IMG/VR virus record: IMGVR_UViG_3300036985_001466
Coordinates: 1 to 31,162 of that record
From: a virus
Length of the DNA: 31,162 bases
Strand: one strand, 5' to 3'
The notes under the pieces were generated by a model. It was not told where the DNA came from. It worked only from the letters and a program-made list of their open reading frames with translations, and searched no databases. This document shows positions 1,144-12,093 of this stretch, piece after piece (position 1 is the first letter of the stretch; each line of letters starts with the position of its first letter). The translations under genes were made by a program, and so were the position numbers.

Positions 1144-3009
1144 TTAGCACTTCCCATATGATACCCCTACTTTAGCTTCACATGCCACAGGTAAGCCTGT
1201 AGCCCATTCTGGAGGGGTAGACATGACCTTGACGATATATGTCATAGCCTCATCTACCTCATCCTCTGGCACTACACATACTGCTGCATCATGTACTGTT
1301 AATACTACTTTATACTGCTTAATAATCTCTATCATTTGCTGCCCCACGATGATACGCGCAAGGGCTTGGACTACATTCTCAACTAACCCACCACCCCATA
1401 AGGATTTCATCCCAAATCGTGACTTATAACAATATCCACTCATGGGTGACATTAAATCTATCTGCAGATCTGCGTAGCGAATATACAGTTCATTTGGTAG
1501 TTGTATACCTTCTTTAGATACTTGTAGGCAGTTATGCCGTCCGTACCAGTAATTAGGTTCTTTATCTGCCCAATTACTGAGGTCTTTTATTACTTTATTA
1601 CCCACTGTCCATAAGGCACTTATCTTGTCGTTATTCTCTCTATAGAGCTTAACTATGCGATCACACTCAGTTAGGGATAGTTCTGCACCGGGGGGTTGAG
1701 TAGCTAGGGTATGTTTTAGTTTAGCTGCTCCTGTACCATAGCCTAGCCCTAGTACACACGTTTTTCCCACAAATCTTTCAACAGGATTGGCCTTTGTGAT
1801 GGGCTTATCGTAGATATCTGAGGCAAACAAGGAATATACATCTTCACCGTCGGCAAACTGCTTAACAACATCTTCCTGACCTGCAAGCCACGCAAGTACA
1901 CGTGCTTCAATCTGAGATGAGTCGCAATTGATAATTGTATAGCCGTCAGGCGCAATAATTGCATTTTTAAGCGTCTTTTTCTTAGCATCCCTACTGGGCA
2001 AGTTCTGGAAGTTAACCTTGTCTGAACCAGACCACCGCCCCGTATGTGCCCCGTAGTATTTAAGCGGTATCGGGAGACGGCCCTTGTTACGTTGCCCAAC
2101 GCTAATGAATCTTTCAATTCTTGATTCCTCGATGGTAGATTTAGTACCTAGACGTACAGCGCATAGCTGCTGTATAAACGGATCTTCATGCGCTGTTAGT
2201 TCTATGAATCCTACATCATTCTTAGCGAGTGCGAAAGTTTCTTTGTTAGTTGTTTTACTTGTTTTCATCGGGGGGATGATATTAAAATCTGTTAGAACTT
2301 GCGCGAATTGCTTGTTGCTGGCTATTTTCTTTCGTACTTCTTCCTCTGTCTCGCAGCCTAGCTTTTCTTTTAGTGTGCCTAGTAACTCTAATTTTTCAGA
2401 TACCAGTTCCTCTAATCTATTTACCAACATTGCATCGTCTACTTCAAGTATCGGATTAATAAACATACGAAGTGTCATATCTATTAAGGTTAGCTCATCC
2501 TCTGGGAACACCCTAGACAATACAAGGTATAGCTTATACGTTAGGTTGACATCATTCTTACAGTATTCACCATATTGTTTAAGATCTTCTTCACTGAAGT
2601 CTAGTCTATGCTTGCCCTTAGCTGCTATAACTTCCTCACCCTTTACACCTAGAGCATACTTGCTAGATAGTGATGCCAGTGACCCACCTACTTCTATGCC
2701 GTGTATACCACGTGCCATACATAGAGTGTCTAAATAAAAACGGGGGGCTATGTTGAAAATCCAGCGTAGTATAGAGGCATCAAACATGGTGTTATGGCAC
2801 AGCAAGGATGCGTGTTTCCAGTCATACTGCATCAGGAATCTCCTTATCTCCTCATGTGTACCACTGAACCATCGCGGCGCTGCATCGTCAACGCTAACCC
2901 CAACCCCTATTACTTCAAACTCTTTGTGGCGTATGTATTCCTCAGTTGTTAGCCGTCTAAAGCCAACCTTGTCGGTGTAATACGTCTCGAAATCTACAGT
3001 GATAATCAA
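1144..3009 (-). CDS. DNA polymerase I-like, family A, with 3'-5' proofreading domain
   Basis: Replicative phage DNA polymerase. A TTG start at 3009 is chosen: AAGG lies 9 bases upstream and the protein then begins LIITVDFETYY, the usual beginning of this family. An in-frame GTG at 3057 has no good ribosome site. The exonuclease domain has DFE (D6, E8), HNTMFD (N73, D77) and a Y/D motif near D153. The polymerase domain has TGRW at 323-326, motif A DSSQIEAR (D363), the O-helix R412-K416-L420-Y424G and motif C HD (H573, D574). There is no 5' nuclease domain; 621 residues is typical for phage forms. The residue aligned with E. coli Phe762 is Leu420. All catalytic residues are present. Confidence 0.96.
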   Translation of the reverse strand: MIITVDFETYYTDKVGFRRLTTEEYIRHKEFEVIGVGVSVDDAAPRWFSGTHEEIRRFLMQYDWKHASLLCHNTMFDASILRWIFNIAPRFYLDTLCMARGIHGIEVGGSLASLSSKYALGVKGEEVIAAKGKHRLDFSEEDLKQYGEYCKNDVNLTYKLYLVLSRVFPEDELTLIDMTLRMFINPILEVDDAMLVNRLEELVSEKLELLGTLKEKLGCETEEEVRKKIASNKQFAQVLTDFNIIPPMKTSKTTNKETFALAKNDVGFIELTAHEDPFIQQLCAVRLGTKSTIEESRIERFISVGQRNKGRLPIPLKYYGAHTGRWSGSDKVNFQNLPSRDAKKKTLKNAIIAPDGYTIINCDSSQIEARVLAWLAGQEDVVKQFADGEDVYSLFASDIYDKPITKANPVERFVGKTCVLGLGYGTGAAKLKHTLATQPPGAELSLTECDRIVKLYRENNDKISALWTVGNKVIKDLSNWADKEPNYWYGRHNCLQVSKEGIQLPNELYIRYADLQIDLMSPMSGYCYKSRFGMKSLWGGGLVENVVQALARIIVGQQMIEIIKQYKVVLTVHDAAVCVVPEDEVDEAMTYIVKVMSTPPEWATGLPVACEAKVGVSYGKC

Positions 3010-3071
3010 AACTAAAAACCTTAAATAGTGGGAATGATAGAGACAAAAAGGGGGCACACACCGTAAAGCGT

Positions 3072-3425: not shown

Positions 3426-3754
3426 TAGTATGCTCCTCGTAAGTCAGCGTAGGTTTGTGCATCTACCATAATGCAATAGCTATTATCATATAGTCCCGTA
3501 GCCCAACCGATATCCATAAGAAGCTCTGGTGTATGGTCATTTATTGATAGCAACATAGTCAGTTTAATCTTTATCTCATCTGGTAAAGTTTCTGCATCAA
3601 ATGTCCTTGTTAGCCCACTTGCTGTGATAAATACCTTATAGATATCCCCAATCTTTTGTAGGCTAATGGCTCTAAGTTCTGGGGAGGACTTTATAAACAC
3701 AAGTTCACCTATAGTATCATGTCCAAAGGTATCGCTATCCATGCGATGTTCCAT
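3425..3754 (-). CDS. hypothetical protein, 109 aa
   Basis: A soluble protein of unknown family between the 338-aa gene and the VRR-NUC gene. The ATG at 3754 makes it overlap the upstream gene by 46 bases. A second ATG at 3742 (MDSDTFGHD) would shorten the overlap; neither has a strong ribosome site, so the start is uncertain. It ends TAATG with the nuclease gene. Mixed strands and helices are suggested, with the core KVFITASGLTRTFDAETLPD; no motif is recognised. Confidence 0.72.
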   Translation of the reverse strand: MEHRMDSDTFGHDTIGELVFIKSSPELRAISLQKIGDIYKVFITASGLTRTFDAETLPDEIKIKLTMLLSINDHTPELLMDIGWATGLYDNSYCIMVDAQTYADLRGAY

Positions 3755-4725
3755 TTATTTCCAAGCCTACCCCCCGCAGTATGATCGTTTGTAACCACAC
3801 TAAGATTAGGCTCATAGTTTTCTCGTATAGGTATTCTAATAGTAGGAACATTAGGGTCTACAACCCATGCTGAGTCTTTGTATACGCCTTCTGCTGTACC
3901 AAGCATAGCAAATATAGGTAATAACTTTTCATAATCCTCATGCTGCGATAAAGAACTAAGCCGCTTAAATGGGGTAACCTGTTCGGACATTTGCAATACC
4001 TTAAATGTCTCCTCTTCCATACGTGCAGCGCCAATTACGTAGCTAACTGATTCTTTATTTCCGGGTATGTAAGAAGCCCCTATAGCGCAGAACCCTTTAG
4101 AGAATATTTCTTTACCCGCTTCTATCTTATTGGCTGCTATGATATCAGCTTTGTCGTAATTGTCAAGTATCTTTTTACATAAGGTCATGTCGAGTGTCGT
4201 TGCATATGTGTCTAAAGATAATTTATTTACAACTATATCAAGAAGTTTATGTAGGGTCGTGCCGTTAATATCATAGGTTCCTTTACTACTATTACCGAAA
4301 GAACGCTCTACAGTAGTGCCCATTTGTTCAAAGGCTTTAGTGACATCGGCATATACTGTTTCTTTTGAAGGGATAACTTCTTTACGCTTCAGTGTACCCA
4401 TCAATGAAGGTAGCTTTACACTCGTGAATGTATGCCTATCTAGTGCGGAACGCCCTCGTACTTTTTCATAGAAAGGGGTAGTAAATGTAAATTCATTGTT
4501 ATGCCCCATACTTATCTCACATATATGGAAGCCATCATCATTGCACATTGATATATTTACCTCAGTTCTTACATTCTCTAGCCCTTCTGCATATATGACG
4601 GTGCGGAACACCTTTAGTCCATAGGTGTAGTTTAGTTCTTTAACAAACCTATATAGATCCACATCAAGACATACTATACGTTCTAACTCTGGGGTGTAGC
4701 ATGAGTCAAGTATATATTTATTCAT
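3709..4725 (-). CDS. hypothetical protein, 338 aa
   Basis: A good ribosome site (GGAG, 6-nt spacer) precedes the ATG at 4725. The protein is soluble and of mixed character with no signal peptide. Regions of note are the N-terminal strand-rich part (about 35-90), a lysine-rich segment near 105-125 (GTLKRKEVIPSKETVYADV) and a helical middle at about 150-215. I do not recognise a family. Its position between SleB hydrolase and nuclease/polymerase genes does not settle its role. Confidence 0.8.
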   Translation of the reverse strand: MNKYILDSCYTPELERIVCLDVDLYRFVKELNYTYGLKVFRTVIYAEGLENVRTEVNISMCNDDGFHICEISMGHNNEFTFTTPFYEKVRGRSALDRHTFTSVKLPSLMGTLKRKEVIPSKETVYADVTKAFEQMGTTVERSFGNSSKGTYDINGTTLHKLLDIVVNKLSLDTYATTLDMTLCKKILDNYDKADIIAANKIEAGKEIFSKGFCAIGASYIPGNKESVSYVIGAARMEEETFKVLQMSEQVTPFKRLSSLSQHEDYEKLLPIFAMLGTAEGVYKDSAWVVDPNVPTIRIPIRENYEPNLSVVTNDHTAGGRLGNKWNIAWIAIPLDMIL

Positions 4726-4737
4726 TGTATTCTCCGT

Positions 4738-5847
4738 TTATTTGTATTGGTTAACTTCTTTTTCGCCTACGTATACCTTATAGCCCCACTTGGTAGATGG
4801 GTAATATTCTTCTACCTCATATCTTACCTCATCAAACGCACTGGGATTTGCTAGTAAAACAGTACGCCTAAATATTGCCATTAATAGACGATAGGATAAG
4901 CTACCATCCCAATCATGCCGTACTCTAATTGGGAATGAGGTTTCAGTTTTACCCTCTCCTTTCCATTTATATAAACTTTTAGCGTTATCCCATATACGAT
5001 GAATATCATGTGCTGCGCATAGCATAGCGAACGCTTCTAATGGGGATTCATCACGCATAGATAATGCTTTCTTAATAAGCGGCTGCTGTCTCTCGTTAGT
5101 CATGTGGTATCCTGTGACTAAATCTAATAGCACCAAGTGAGGTAAGACCATATCTAAAAGGATTTTATATGTAACTCCATGTGACATGGCGGCGGACATG
5201 ATGATAAAATCATCAAACTGTCCCATAATTTTCTTAGCCCTTGTGCGATTTACTTTTCTACCTACTACAGTGTACTTACTATCCTTGTGTACCATACCTG
5301 TATCAATGTTAACCCTCATACCCTCAAATATAGGTATGTAATTTTGGTCATCTTTAGACCCAGACCCCGTACAATAGACTAGCCCCCCACGCTTCTTTGA
5401 ATATCCCGTGCCTTGATACCCCGCGCCTCGATACCAGTGCCTATCTCCATGTACAATATTTATATCTGATATACCCCATCTATGCCCTATACCTGTACTT
5501 GGTCTAGTATATTCAAAGGTATTATCTGGGCGCACAATTCCCAACTCATTACGTATCCTCATGTGTCTATACTCTTTACCATCTTCTGCGGAAATCCATG
5601 TACCCGTATTACGCGGGTTATGCCGTAGGCTCGATGGATCATCCTGTAAAACTTCTTCCCTACGATAAGCATACCTGTTGAATATCTTATAACATACCTC
5701 ACCATCAATTTCTTCTACCATAAAATACTTATAGCTATCCTTTCTACGGTATATTGGAAATCTATTGGTTGACCCGCGATATGGCTTTACCTCTGGTGCA
5801 AGCCTAATATCTGTTAGACGTTTATAGCTTATATATGAACTTAACAT
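4738..5847 (-). CDS. hypothetical protein, 369 aa
   Basis: The start is fixed by GGAGAAACAA directly before the ATG at 5847 (MLSSYISYKRL); the frame extends to 5880, but that part contains palindrome copy C. The protein is basic and rich in Tyr, Arg and Trp. Its N-terminal 200 residues carry many G/R/W turns (IGHRWGISDINIVHGDRHWY), and the C-terminal part is helical (about 205-300). No family is recognised. With the following 338-aa gene it forms a pair of unknown proteins, and a joint function is possible. Confidence 0.8.
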   Translation of the reverse strand: MLSSYISYKRLTDIRLAPEVKPYRGSTNRFPIYRRKDSYKYFMVEEIDGEVCYKIFNRYAYRREEVLQDDPSSLRHNPRNTGTWISAEDGKEYRHMRIRNELGIVRPDNTFEYTRPSTGIGHRWGISDINIVHGDRHWYRGAGYQGTGYSKKRGGLVYCTGSGSKDDQNYIPIFEGMRVNIDTGMVHKDSKYTVVGRKVNRTRAKKIMGQFDDFIIMSAAMSHGVTYKILLDMVLPHLVLLDLVTGYHMTNERQQPLIKKALSMRDESPLEAFAMLCAAHDIHRIWDNAKSLYKWKGEGKTETSFPIRVRHDWDGSLSYRLLMAIFRRTVLLANPSAFDEVRYEVEEYYPSTKWGYKVYVGEKEVNQYK

Positions 5848-5870
5848 TTGTTTCTCCATTAATTTAAGAT

Positions 5871-5886
5871 TACACCCCAAGGTGTA
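5871..5886. promoter_or_regulatory. palindromic element, copy C
   Basis: TACACC-CCAA-GGTGTA is a perfect 6-bp inverted repeat with a 4-nt centre. It lies between the 64-aa gene and the ribosome site of the 369-aa gene. The plus-strand flank TGACTATTTA matches other copies. As minus-strand RNA it would form a hairpin about 25 bases before the start codon. Confidence 0.55.
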
Positions 5887-6480: not shown

Positions 6481-7761
6481 TTACTCCTTATCAAAGATTA
6501 CTACCTTACCTACTGGCGGGGTAAAGCCCCTATTAGATGTTACCATCCATAGTGTAGGCATAGCTATATCCCATATAACTTCCTGTTCCAGATAACCGTC
6601 TGTGAACATAATCACCGCTTCAGACTTAACCTTATTGGTAATTATATACTCAGCTACACAACTTGCTATTGTTCCCCCACCCCCTAAAGGTTTCAGGAGC
6701 TTACCTATCCCGTCATAGTTCGGTAAGAATACTTGTTCCCCATGTACTCGCGTATCCCACCACAACACACGCACCTTCTCTGGCGTACACATCGCACACA
6801 CAGATGCCAGTTCCGTAGCAAACTCATTCAACTCAGTCTCGCCAATAGAACCACTTGTGTCGATAGCTATGATAACCTCTCCCATTGTGTCCGTCTCATA
6901 GCTAGGTAGGTACACGTCATTCGATAGTTGACGTTTGTTCAGTTTGCGCCAAGTAAGTTCCTCGTTACCCTTAGTAGAGGCTTGCACAAAATCCCGTAGC
7001 ACATCACGCCAATCTATCTTAGGTTCGAGCATCTCAGTAACAGCCCTCGGAATATTACTACCCAATCTACCCGCTAGTATCCCGCCCTCTCGTATGGCTT
7101 TCTCTACCCCATCGTTAACCTTCTTCAACTCCTCAGGGCTAAGTTTCTCCAACCCCTTGTAGTCATGCTCATCATGCTTAGAAGTATCATACTTCTTGCC
7201 GTTCACTGTAACAGATGTCCTCTTGCCACTCGGTTGCCCATCACCGTCACCGTCACTTGGCGCACTATTTCCCTCTACACCATCAGGTGTATTACTATCT
7301 TCCTCCTCTACTTCATTTTTCTTTAGATAGTCATACACCGCCCTCATTGACCAATTGTTAAACATCTCATCGTGCAACGCCTCGTCAGGTAGCTCTACTA
7401 ACAACTCACCGTTCGATAGTTTATCTTTTATATCAAAGATGATTGCGTTAACAACAAAGTCGGCTGCCATGTTAGCTAGTTTATGATGCTCTTTGAACAT
7501 ACTTAGCCCACGCGGTAGCTGCTTCAGCCCAACGTGTAAGTTCTCGTGCATTATCAACCCACGTATCTTAGAATCTTTCTTGATATCTGCCACGAATTGA
7601 CGGCAATACCTCTTGTTCACCCCATCGGTAGATGCAGTGAAGTCACCATCCTCCACCTCAGTCTTACCTAATAGAAACACCCCGCCCCAAAGGGCGGTAG
7701 CACGATGCTTCATTAGAGTTATATGTCCACGTTTAATACGTGTCTCCTGTGTCTCTTTCAT
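6481..7761 (-). CDS. VWA-like protein with HExxH motif (DUF2201/CobT-like)
   Basis: A 426-residue protein with two domains. The N-terminal one has LIMHENLHVGLKQ (H72, E73, H76), the HExxH zinc-peptidase signature, followed by an AADFVVN helix (99-105), as in the putative metallopeptidase domain DUF2201_N. An acidic Ser/Gly/Asp linker spans about 150-180. The C-terminal VWA-like domain has an intact MIDAS: DTSGS (D301, S303, S305), GGGT (T364) and FTDG (D388). It directly follows a MoxR-like ATPase and a DUF3150-like gene, the usual partners. Such ATPase/VWA pairs remodel or insert metals into target proteins; here the target is unknown. The start is supported by GGAG, 6-nt spacer. Confidence 0.88.
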   Translation of the reverse strand: MKETQETRIKRGHITLMKHRATALWGGVFLLGKTEVEDGDFTASTDGVNKRYCRQFVADIKKDSKIRGLIMHENLHVGLKQLPRGLSMFKEHHKLANMAADFVVNAIIFDIKDKLSNGELLVELPDEALHDEMFNNWSMRAVYDYLKKNEVEEEDSNTPDGVEGNSAPSDGDGDGQPSGKRTSVTVNGKKYDTSKHDEHDYKGLEKLSPEELKKVNDGVEKAIREGGILAGRLGSNIPRAVTEMLEPKIDWRDVLRDFVQASTKGNEELTWRKLNKRQLSNDVYLPSYETDTMGEVIIAIDTSGSIGETELNEFATELASVCAMCTPEKVRVLWWDTRVHGEQVFLPNYDGIGKLLKPLGGGGTIASCVAEYIITNKVKSEAVIMFTDGYLEQEVIWDIAMPTLWMVTSNRGFTPPVGKVVIFDKE

Positions 7762-7785
7762 TTCATTCTCCTGTGTGTAGTTAAA

Positions 7786-8901
7786 TTAAACAGCTACTAA
7801 CTCATGATGGTTCTTTGCCCATTCTTTTATGAGTTCATTTCTACTTGCCATCTTGACCATACGTGCAGTATTCATAGACAACGTAAAGAATATCGCCTGT
7901 ATTTCTTCTGACTCGATACGCCCAACAAACTCCATGAATGAAGATAGATCATCTTGTGTGTCGATAGTATCCACCGCTTGCAGCATCATCATTACCTGTG
8001 CAGCTATCTCCTTCGGTACAGTCACCGTCTTAGGGGACTTGATAACTTCCTTTACATCAATCAATGTACTCTCAATTGATACAAACGTAGCCAGATCCTT
8101 CGCCGCTGATGCCCCAATCGTGCCAGCTAATGCACACTTAACAGAGTTCTCAGACAATGCACTTACATTACGCACGATCACATCGCACTTAGCCAGACTG
8201 CGCGGTGAACAGAACGAAAGCGCCGGTGTCTTAGGGTTAAAGATGTATGGATTATCTTCTTGCCCACCGTCAAGGTAACTTGCTAATGCCCTTGGATACA
8301 TCGTTACCCATGCTCTAATAGGTCTAGCAATATGCTTCTCGGTTGCCCACACTAACCACTGACTAGCCGTAGGTTTAGCCATGTGTAAGATACATACCCG
8401 ATTACCAGCATGGGCTAACAGACTATCACCCACCCCATCGCTTGCGTTATTACTTGTGCCAAAGATGTAAGACCCAATAGGTAGCGGCACATCCCCGACC
8501 ATACGTTCCAATACCAAGCGGGTGAATACAACCTGCATCAACTTGTTAGACTTCATGTACTCATCAAGTAGAATTACCTTAGGCCGCTTATCTAGTATGT
8601 TGAACAACCCCGCAACGTAATACTCCAATGACTTGGTAGCGTGTACTGGAATGGTCATACCTATGTCGGACATATCCTTAACGGGGCAGTCTACATATAT
8701 ATAATCGTACTTGTCATCAGGGAAGTAATCCCCGGGCTTTCTCCACTGATCCCCGTTATCTAATGCTATTGCAGCTAACAGTGAAGTCTTACCACATCCC
8801 GGCTCGCTCAGTATGATCGGTGTTATCTCCTCACCAATGATCGGAATCATCTTACGCAGTTCATTGATTGATACGGTATCTCTAAAATTAATCTTACTCA
8901 T
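7786..8901 (-). CDS. MoxR/CobS-like AAA+ ATPase
   Basis: A 371-residue ATPase. Walker A is EPGCGKTS (33-40) and Walker B is KVILLDEYMKS (D113, E114). Sensor 1 lies in FGTSNNASDG (N151/N152), and a possible arginine finger is R168 in HAGNRVC. The C-terminal half is helical. This architecture is that of MoxR/CobS ATPases, which act as hexameric rings together with VWA proteins. Its direct neighbours are a DUF3150-like and a VWA/HExxH protein. Phage homologues are often labelled CobS, but nothing here indicates cobalamin synthesis. GGAGAAACAA precedes the ATG. Confidence 0.92.
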   Translation of the reverse strand: MSKINFRDTVSINELRKMIPIIGEEITPIILSEPGCGKTSLLAAIALDNGDQWRKPGDYFPDDKYDYIYVDCPVKDMSDIGMTIPVHATKSLEYYVAGLFNILDKRPKVILLDEYMKSNKLMQVVFTRLVLERMVGDVPLPIGSYIFGTSNNASDGVGDSLLAHAGNRVCILHMAKPTASQWLVWATEKHIARPIRAWVTMYPRALASYLDGGQEDNPYIFNPKTPALSFCSPRSLAKCDVIVRNVSALSENSVKCALAGTIGASAAKDLATFVSIESTLIDVKEVIKSPKTVTVPKEIAAQVMMMLQAVDTIDTQDDLSSFMEFVGRIESEEIQAIFFTLSMNTARMVKMASRNELIKEWAKNHHELVAV

Positions 8902-8927
8902 TTGTTTCTCCTTAGGTTAATGTTGAA

Positions 8928-9854
8928 TTAAACGCACTTGAAGCTACTAAACTTAGACAAGATGTTATCTATGTCACTCTTTACTGACTCACGCACTGAA
9001 TCAGACTCCCTTATGTCACTTGCCGTTACACCATTGAGTGTAATCTCCAACGCTGCTCTTGCTTCTTCTAACTCATTACTACCTGACACATTGAACCCCT
9101 TGAACGTCTCGCACATCTCTTTAGCACGTTGAATCGTGGTGTCATATATCTTGCGCTTCTTGGTCTTGGGATCGCCATGCTTATCCACACCCGTATCATC
9201 CAGCCCACAACAAAAGGATATAGACTCCATAACATCTGTGAATCTATCTGCTTGCTCGGACATTAATGTGTTAACTATGGTTGCGGCTTGGTTGCTGTAT
9301 GTATTAAACAAGTCATCAGCCAAGTCTTGGGCTATCCCACATCGGAAGTCGTACATCGGCACATCGGCTAAGAATAAACTTATCGCAAATTTTGATTGCA
9401 CTACGTTAACGTCAGGATAGTCATTCCTATCAAACATATCACCCTGCTTGAACGCCATGTCTGACACGATACTGCTATAGTCCTTGCAGAATTTATCCAA
9501 TAGATCATGGAACGCGGCTTCATGGGCACGATACTCCACCATAAACGTAGGTATATCTGTAGATGGTAGAAGGTCTTGGCTGTGACTCCAAGGATATGTT
9601 CTACGCTTCATCCAGTTATATACTGTTTGGCGATAGTTAACTACGGCTTTGTGCTTCGGATTGTCAGCTAAGATGTTCTTAACAAACCGACCGCTGTTCT
9701 TATCGGCTTTCTTGGCTGATGTTACTTCATCGCTGATGCTACGGTCTTGCTTGGTTGCCGACCATACTTTCACATCTACGGCTACTAGGACTGCGCTTGA
9801 TGCCAGTGACACAAGATGCTTGGGCTTCTGTAATACTAAATTAACTGAGTTCAT
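8928..9854 (-). CDS. DUF3150-like protein, partner of the ATPase/VWA pair
   Basis: 308 residues, first gene of the P1 transcript (GGAG, 7-nt spacer). The N-terminal part, DVKVWSATKQDRSISDEV followed by a Lys/Asn-rich segment, is typical of DUF3150. The rest is mainly helical with charged surfaces and no enzyme motif. DUF3150 proteins lie beside MoxR-like ATPases and VWA/metallopeptidase-like proteins in bacteria and phages, and this gene order is the main support. It may be the substrate adaptor or regulator of the complex; that is inference. Confidence 0.8.
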   Translation of the reverse strand: MNSVNLVLQKPKHLVSLASSAVLVAVDVKVWSATKQDRSISDEVTSAKKADKNSGRFVKNILADNPKHKAVVNYRQTVYNWMKRRTYPWSHSQDLLPSTDIPTFMVEYRAHEAAFHDLLDKFCKDYSSIVSDMAFKQGDMFDRNDYPDVNVVQSKFAISLFLADVPMYDFRCGIAQDLADDLFNTYSNQAATIVNTLMSEQADRFTDVMESISFCCGLDDTGVDKHGDPKTKKRKIYDTTIQRAKEMCETFKGFNVSGSNELEEARAALEITLNGVTASDIRESDSVRESVKSDIDNILSKFSSFKCV

Positions 9855-9989: not shown

Positions 9990-10018
9990 ATTATAACATA
10001 ACTTTACATATAGATCAA
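9990..10018 (-). promoter_or_regulatory. P1, sigma70-like leftward promoter
   Basis: On the minus strand, TTGATC (10018-10013) and TATAAT (9995-9990) are separated by exactly 17 bases. The block from about 9970 to 10040 is a near copy of the P2 region. It includes AAAAAGTT-R-CC upstream of the -35 and GTACTTGTA-R-GTGAGGGAT downstream of the -10. It should drive the DUF3150-like gene and the genes behind it, with a leader of about 130 bases. Confidence 0.82.
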
Positions 10019-10044
10019 TACTTCTAGGCAACTTTTTTATACGT

Positions 10045-10081
10045 CCACTGATAAGTTATTAACTCACCACTGATAAGTTAT
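10045..10081. repeat. 15-bp direct repeat pair
   Basis: CCACTGATAAGTTAT occurs at 10045-10059 and 10067-10081, a 22-bp period of about two helical turns. It lies just upstream of P1 and its second copy overlaps the end of the 67-aa gene. Helical phasing next to a promoter suggests a regulator binding site; this is inferred. Confidence 0.6.
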
Positions 10082-12060: not shown

Positions 12061-12093
12061 AAAAAAAGGGCGATCGGCTTTCGCCGATCACCC
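12061..12093 (-). terminator. rho-independent terminator of the 204-aa gene
   Basis: On the minus strand an 11-bp stem with one mismatch (GGGTGATCGGC with GCCGATCGCCC) is closed by a GAAA tetraloop and followed by seven T. It lies 12 bases after the stop of the 204-aa gene. This is one of the clearest terminators in the window. Confidence 0.93.

Follow-up and report, generated by a model that had tools for sequence, protein, structure and literature searches.

Three adjacent genes in the window (the whole 31,162-bp stretch analysed, a virus record) form a real and strictly conserved cassette, which encodes a distant DUF3150 relative, a MoxR-like AAA+ ATPase and a putative metallopeptidase fused to a VWA domain, and homologous trios are carried by plasmids. 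We hold with moderate confidence that the three products make up an ATP-driven machine that remodels or processes a complex met by mobile DNA in the cell, rather than serving only as a virion-assembly chaperone. The architecture of the cassette, the conservation of its motifs and the linkage of its genes were observed directly, as set out below.

Layout and linkage of the cassette

The three ORFs proposed by an earlier, sequence-only reading of this DNA were all found on the minus strand (Table 1). They share this strand with the gene for a family A DNA polymerase in the left part of the window, where many genes without assignment are also located, and lie opposite to the large terminase, portal, head protein and tail fibre genes, which occupy the plus strand in the right part. 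A cell wall hydrolase gene begins a few bases past the VWA gene, located on the strand of the replication side and apart from the late genes; in other relatives it was found further from the VWA gene or not at all. Two larger proteins, of 380 and 338 aa, accompany the trio in most related contigs; neither had a match in Pfam or PHROG, and a Pfam search of the conserved neighbour genes returned no matches. At the DNA level, a nucleotide search found no phage relatives.

Table 1. Position, strand and basis of the features of the window
Feature	Position	Strand	Basis or remark
380-aa protein	4738-5880		Accompanies trio in most related contigs
338-aa protein	3709-4725		Accompanies trio in most related contigs
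Family A DNA polymerase	1144-3057	-	Left part of window
Cell wall hydrolase, 126 aa	6095-6475		Hydrolase_2, E 2.7e-12
Putative metallopeptidase (DUF2201_N) fused to VWA domain (DUF2201), 426 aa	6481..7761	-	Pfam
MoxR-like AAA+ ATPase, 371 aa	7786..8901	-	phrog_1297; Walker motifs
DUF3150-type protein, 308 aa, first gene of trio	8928..9854	-	ORF list; homology to DUF3150
Sigma70-like promoter TTGATC-17-TGTTATAAT	9990..10018	-	Upstream of trio
Two direct exact 15-bp copies of ATAACTTATCAGTGG, 22 bp apart	10043..10081 (approximate bounds)	-	Possible operator
Strong terminator-like hairpin plus seven T	12068-12093	-	Separates upstream leftward genes

Linkage of the three genes in relatives, on which the earlier reading depended, held throughout: no related viral locus departed from collinearity unless truncated by the end of its contig. 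Relatives of the 308-aa protein were encoded by 113 IMG/VR stretches, and the complete trio was present in 216 viral loci (overlapping contigs counted). The order DUF3150-ATPase-VWA was found in all viral loci fetched, including a divergent viral trio (L185), and every locus without one of the genes was cut by a contig end. Approximately 160 triads were distinct by sequence, five of these from plasmids. Hundreds of phage records contain relatives of the VWA protein, and N4, Vibrio phage D456, XaC1 and further phages carry the ATPase-VWA pair in regions where a DUF3150 homologue was not detected; a tblastn search for such a homologue in cultured phages found none. As many phages have the pair alone, the DUF3150 subunit is not needed everywhere. 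In Vibrio phage JSF3 an HNH gene, apparently an intron, splits the pair's ATPase gene, and in Escherichia phage YP-6 a gene annotated as 'anti-sigma factor' precedes the VWA gene, with a separate MoxR ATPase ∼3 kb off on the other strand.

The trio had been placed directly behind a promoter and at the head of the early operon, and the first part of this claim fared better than the second. A sigma70-like site ends ∼135 bp before the start of the trio. Beyond it, on the same strand, are at least five predicted ORFs, several of them small and one encoding an HTH, such that the trio would head a transcription unit but not the whole leftward module. Sigma70-like sites occurred at chance level in the region (22 found, 21.3 expected), and strong sites (score ≥ 11 of 13) were found within the 250 bases before the first gene in 30 % of 142 distinct upstream regions and in 1 % of shuffles. 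Since the upstream sequences are related, this conservation supports a promoter without proving one. The layout suggests that expression of the trio may be early. Just upstream of the promoter-like site lies a pair of direct repeats, kept among the relatives in L002 only, which are a possible operator; the terminator-like hairpin is located beyond them.

Motifs and family placement of the three proteins

The 426-aa protein belongs to DUF2201_N and DUF2201, with both of its domains scoring above the Pfam gathering cut-off. The N-terminal part matched the DUF2201_N 'putative metallopeptidase' (PF13203; E 4.9e-22, 79.3 bits against a cut-off of 23.2), and the C-terminal part the 'VWA-like' DUF2201 (PF09967; E 4e-18, 66.2 bits against 26.4). 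It also fell into phrog_1314 (E 5.4e-73), a PHROGs family labelled 'HNH endonuclease'; as DUF2201_N and DUF2201 are the sole Pfam matches, this label looks wrong and was rejected. The same label is found on many GenBank phage records and is thus widely propagated. An intact MIDAS and an HExxH motif had been described, and every residue named proved invariant in 34 relatives, namely H72-E73-N74-L75-H76 (HENLH) with D101, 25 residues on, and D301/S303/S305/T364/D388 of the MIDAS. Amongst the family members read, plasmid and cultured-phage copies included, HExxH was kept in 245 of 245; an aspartate 20–25 residues past it was found by pattern in 238 of these and is visible by eye in the other seven. 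The AlphaFold model (mean pLDDT 79) consists, in order, of strands, the HENLH helix (63-78), a long helix bearing D101 (86-110) and a VWA-type fold. Almost all PDB matches listed for this model were to VWA domains (best E 9.5e-4), with no fold match for the N-terminal peptidase domain among them; a putative zincin fold for this domain has the support of its motif and modelled secondary structure.

The 371-aa protein was assigned to the PHROGs 'ATPase' family phrog_1297 (E 1.1e-46), whilst its Pfam AAA match was weak (E 0.055). It contains a Walker A motif (SEPGCGKT), a Walker B motif (ILLDE) and a sensor-1-like TSNN. The view that the Walker motifs are intact stands in so far as K38 and D113/E114, together with N151, N152, R168, R234 and S235, are invariant in 34 relatives; the Walker A sequence is, however, a variant, with Ser replacing the first Gly of the textbook form. 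The MoxR label used herein follows the published naming of the homologous pair. CobS/CobT cobaltochelatase subunits share the AAA+ plus VWA logic of the trio, and the doubt already expressed over a CobS-type label was well placed: no CobS or CobT Pfam match was found in the window proteins at E up to 0.1, nor any cobalamin gene among the neighbours searched. Lacking Pfam support, the CobS/CobT reading was dropped. A known defence system was likewise rejected, with PADLOC giving weak ATPase matches alone (best E 0.0016).

The 308-aa protein can be placed with DUF3150, as had been suggested, but as a distant relative. Pfam and PHROG searches with it were blank at the thresholds used, save for a chance-level Pfam match (E 0.076). 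The gathering cut-off of the DUF3150 model PF11348 was not reached: the window protein gave no match and its orthologue in L079 scored 22.6 bits against a cut-off of 24.9, and is hence sub-threshold. Matches to PF11348 below cut-off nevertheless fell at the orthologous gene in 6 of 17 related contigs. Using tblastn with the L079 orthologue, we retrieved 42 plasmids, some annotated DUF3150, and an HMM built from eight plasmid proteins recovered 34 of 34 phage proteins (E ≤ 1.1e-23, with Z set to 100,000). HHalign aligned the phage family with the plasmid family, which includes at least one protein annotated DUF3150, over its full length (278 columns, probability 99.8, E 1.1e-29), and the best Foldseek match among viral structures was a phage 'DUF3150 domain-containing protein' (E 7.4e-13). 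The predicted structure is mostly helical with two long helices and of modest confidence (pTM 0.52); a known PDB fold was rejected, as the best match (E 0.17) was amongst merely helical look-alikes. The sole match for the 308-aa protein in the genome collection was a 7.6-kb contig (L094) from the MAG of an uncultured actinobacterium, which hints weakly at the host unless a viral contig was placed in that bin by chance.

Plasmid trios and related systems

Homologous trios were found on plasmids of Rhodovastum, Cupriavidus, Burkholderia, Paraburkholderia, Robbsia and Simplicispira. Of the eight plasmid regions that we read around a DUF3150-type gene, seven contained the ATPase, DUF3150-like and VWA-like genes, adjacent in six and with the ATPase ∼3.6 kb upstream in Simplicispira; the eighth (P. 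acidisoli) has no listed ATPase, and the reading frame for it is apparently split in two. As in the window, all three genes of the Cupriavidus basilensis plasmid pRK1-1 (ATP-binding protein-DUF3150-VWA-like) are homologous and adjacent. The plasmid trios differ in their order, which is ATPase-DUF3150-VWA as opposed to DUF3150-ATPase-VWA, and in their surroundings, with PRTRC genes a few kb away from several Burkholderiales copies, and with type IV secretion genes adjoining several copies. Full-length homology of the plasmid and phage DUF3150-type proteins points to shared ancestry of the trios. Viral triads and plasmid trios did not form one clade in trees, where the VWA protein of L185 grouped with plasmids (with weak support) and its ATPase fell outside the window clade; the trio may have had a single origin, with which the trees are compatible, as they are with several.

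RavA-ViaA, which pairs a MoxR-type ATPase with a VWA partner, resembles the trio in this respect, and to our knowledge has neither a peptidase domain nor a DUF3150 protein; the window proteins showed no match to RavA- or ViaA-type Pfam models. Closer relatives exist in Schitoviridae, where the VWA proteins matched are ∼23–26 % identical to that of the window. In N4, gp24 and gp25 are a homologous ATPase and metallopeptidase-VWA protein, adjacent and in the middle/replication region, differing from the window in that no DUF3150 homologue was detected beside them; they are middle genes and two of the 14 N4-like core genes, where their descriptions read 'unknown' and 'vWFA domain' (PMC4193335). 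A survey of jumbo phages described a MoxR AAA+-vWA pair of the same two-protein architecture, noted its N-terminal metallopeptidase and proposed a role in virion assembly and processing; its passage on the pair makes no mention of a DUF3150 partner (Iyer 2021; PMC7824862). In other systems, MoxR ATPases and their VWA partners serve in remodelling or assembly (PMC7159879). The cassette had been put forward as an undescribed phage system; the pair is already published (PMC4193335, PMC7824862), whereas the third, DUF3150 subunit and the sharing of the trio between phages and plasmids seem to be undescribed. The term 'DUF3150' was absent from the open-access literature, a scope that leaves out most subscription papers and bioRxiv preprints and so provides weak evidence of novelty; open-access literature containing 'DUF2201' includes one phage genome report.

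Possible functions of the trio

In the mechanism that we propose, a MoxR-like AAA+ ATPase, presumably a hexamer, would work with the VWA cofactor, whose MIDAS metal site would grip a substrate or adaptor. Cutting or processing of the substrate would fall to the N-terminal zincin-like domain (HENLH with D101), and fusion of an HExxH domain suggests that what is remodelled also gets cut; the DUF3150 protein would act as a third subunit, either structural or as an adaptor. The trio would have a promoter of its own and be expressed ahead of the replication genes, and the leading candidates for the substrate are complexes of replication or maintenance and host factors. We infer complex formation, peptidase activity, timing and target alike. 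More narrowly, a DUF3150-bearing ATP-dependent metalloprotease or remodelling machine might process a replication or host protein and so establish incoming mobile DNA, both in uncultured phages and on large, partly conjugative plasmids, and DUF3150 would be its dedicated third subunit; we offer this only tentatively.

Alternatively, the MoxR-VWA proteins could be a chaperone that assembles tail or head parts, with the metallopeptidase trimming structural proteins, as proposed for the jumbo-phage version of the pair (PMC7824862), with Acidianus two-tailed virus as an analogy; some cultured-phage copies, in S-TIM5 and RHEph22, are indeed near structural genes. We consider this unlikely for the trio, given that the window copy lies on the opposite strand to the identified structural genes and that N4 gp24/gp25 are middle rather than late genes (PMC4193335). 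Moreover, plasmids make no virions, which renders a purely virion-specific role less likely, and the presence of homologous trios on them argues against a virion protein as the sole substrate. The plasmid copies fit a role in replication, takeover or evasion better than one confined to the virion.

These same plasmids would suit a counter-defence or takeover protease that, soon after infection begins, disarms or destroys a defence or regulatory protein of the host, and does likewise on plasmid entry, as phages and conjugative plasmids both meet host defence when they enter; the early-type layout with its promoter-like site also agrees with this. Typical anti-defence genes are patchy, however, whilst the window clade keeps the trio whole with its replication-side neighbours, and the relation detected by PADLOC was not strong, making such a role quite unlikely. 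Alternatively, the metallopeptidase domain might be catalytically idle and the module a pure remodelling chaperone, as known MoxR-VWA systems such as RavA-ViaA act as chaperones and are not known to have a peptidase domain (PMC7824862, PMC7159879). We regard this as distinctly improbable, because the invariance of H72, E73, H76 and D101 in 34 window-clade relatives, and of HExxH in the whole family read, would be difficult to account for if no metal chemistry took place. The reading that we prefer remains a machine that remodels or processes a complex within the cell.

The VWA/ATPase pair belongs to the N4-like core genes, and the plasmid trio offers a virion-free genetic system for finding the function of the pair, and makes the published virion-assembly proposal directly testable. 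DUF3150 would, in turn, gain a functional context.
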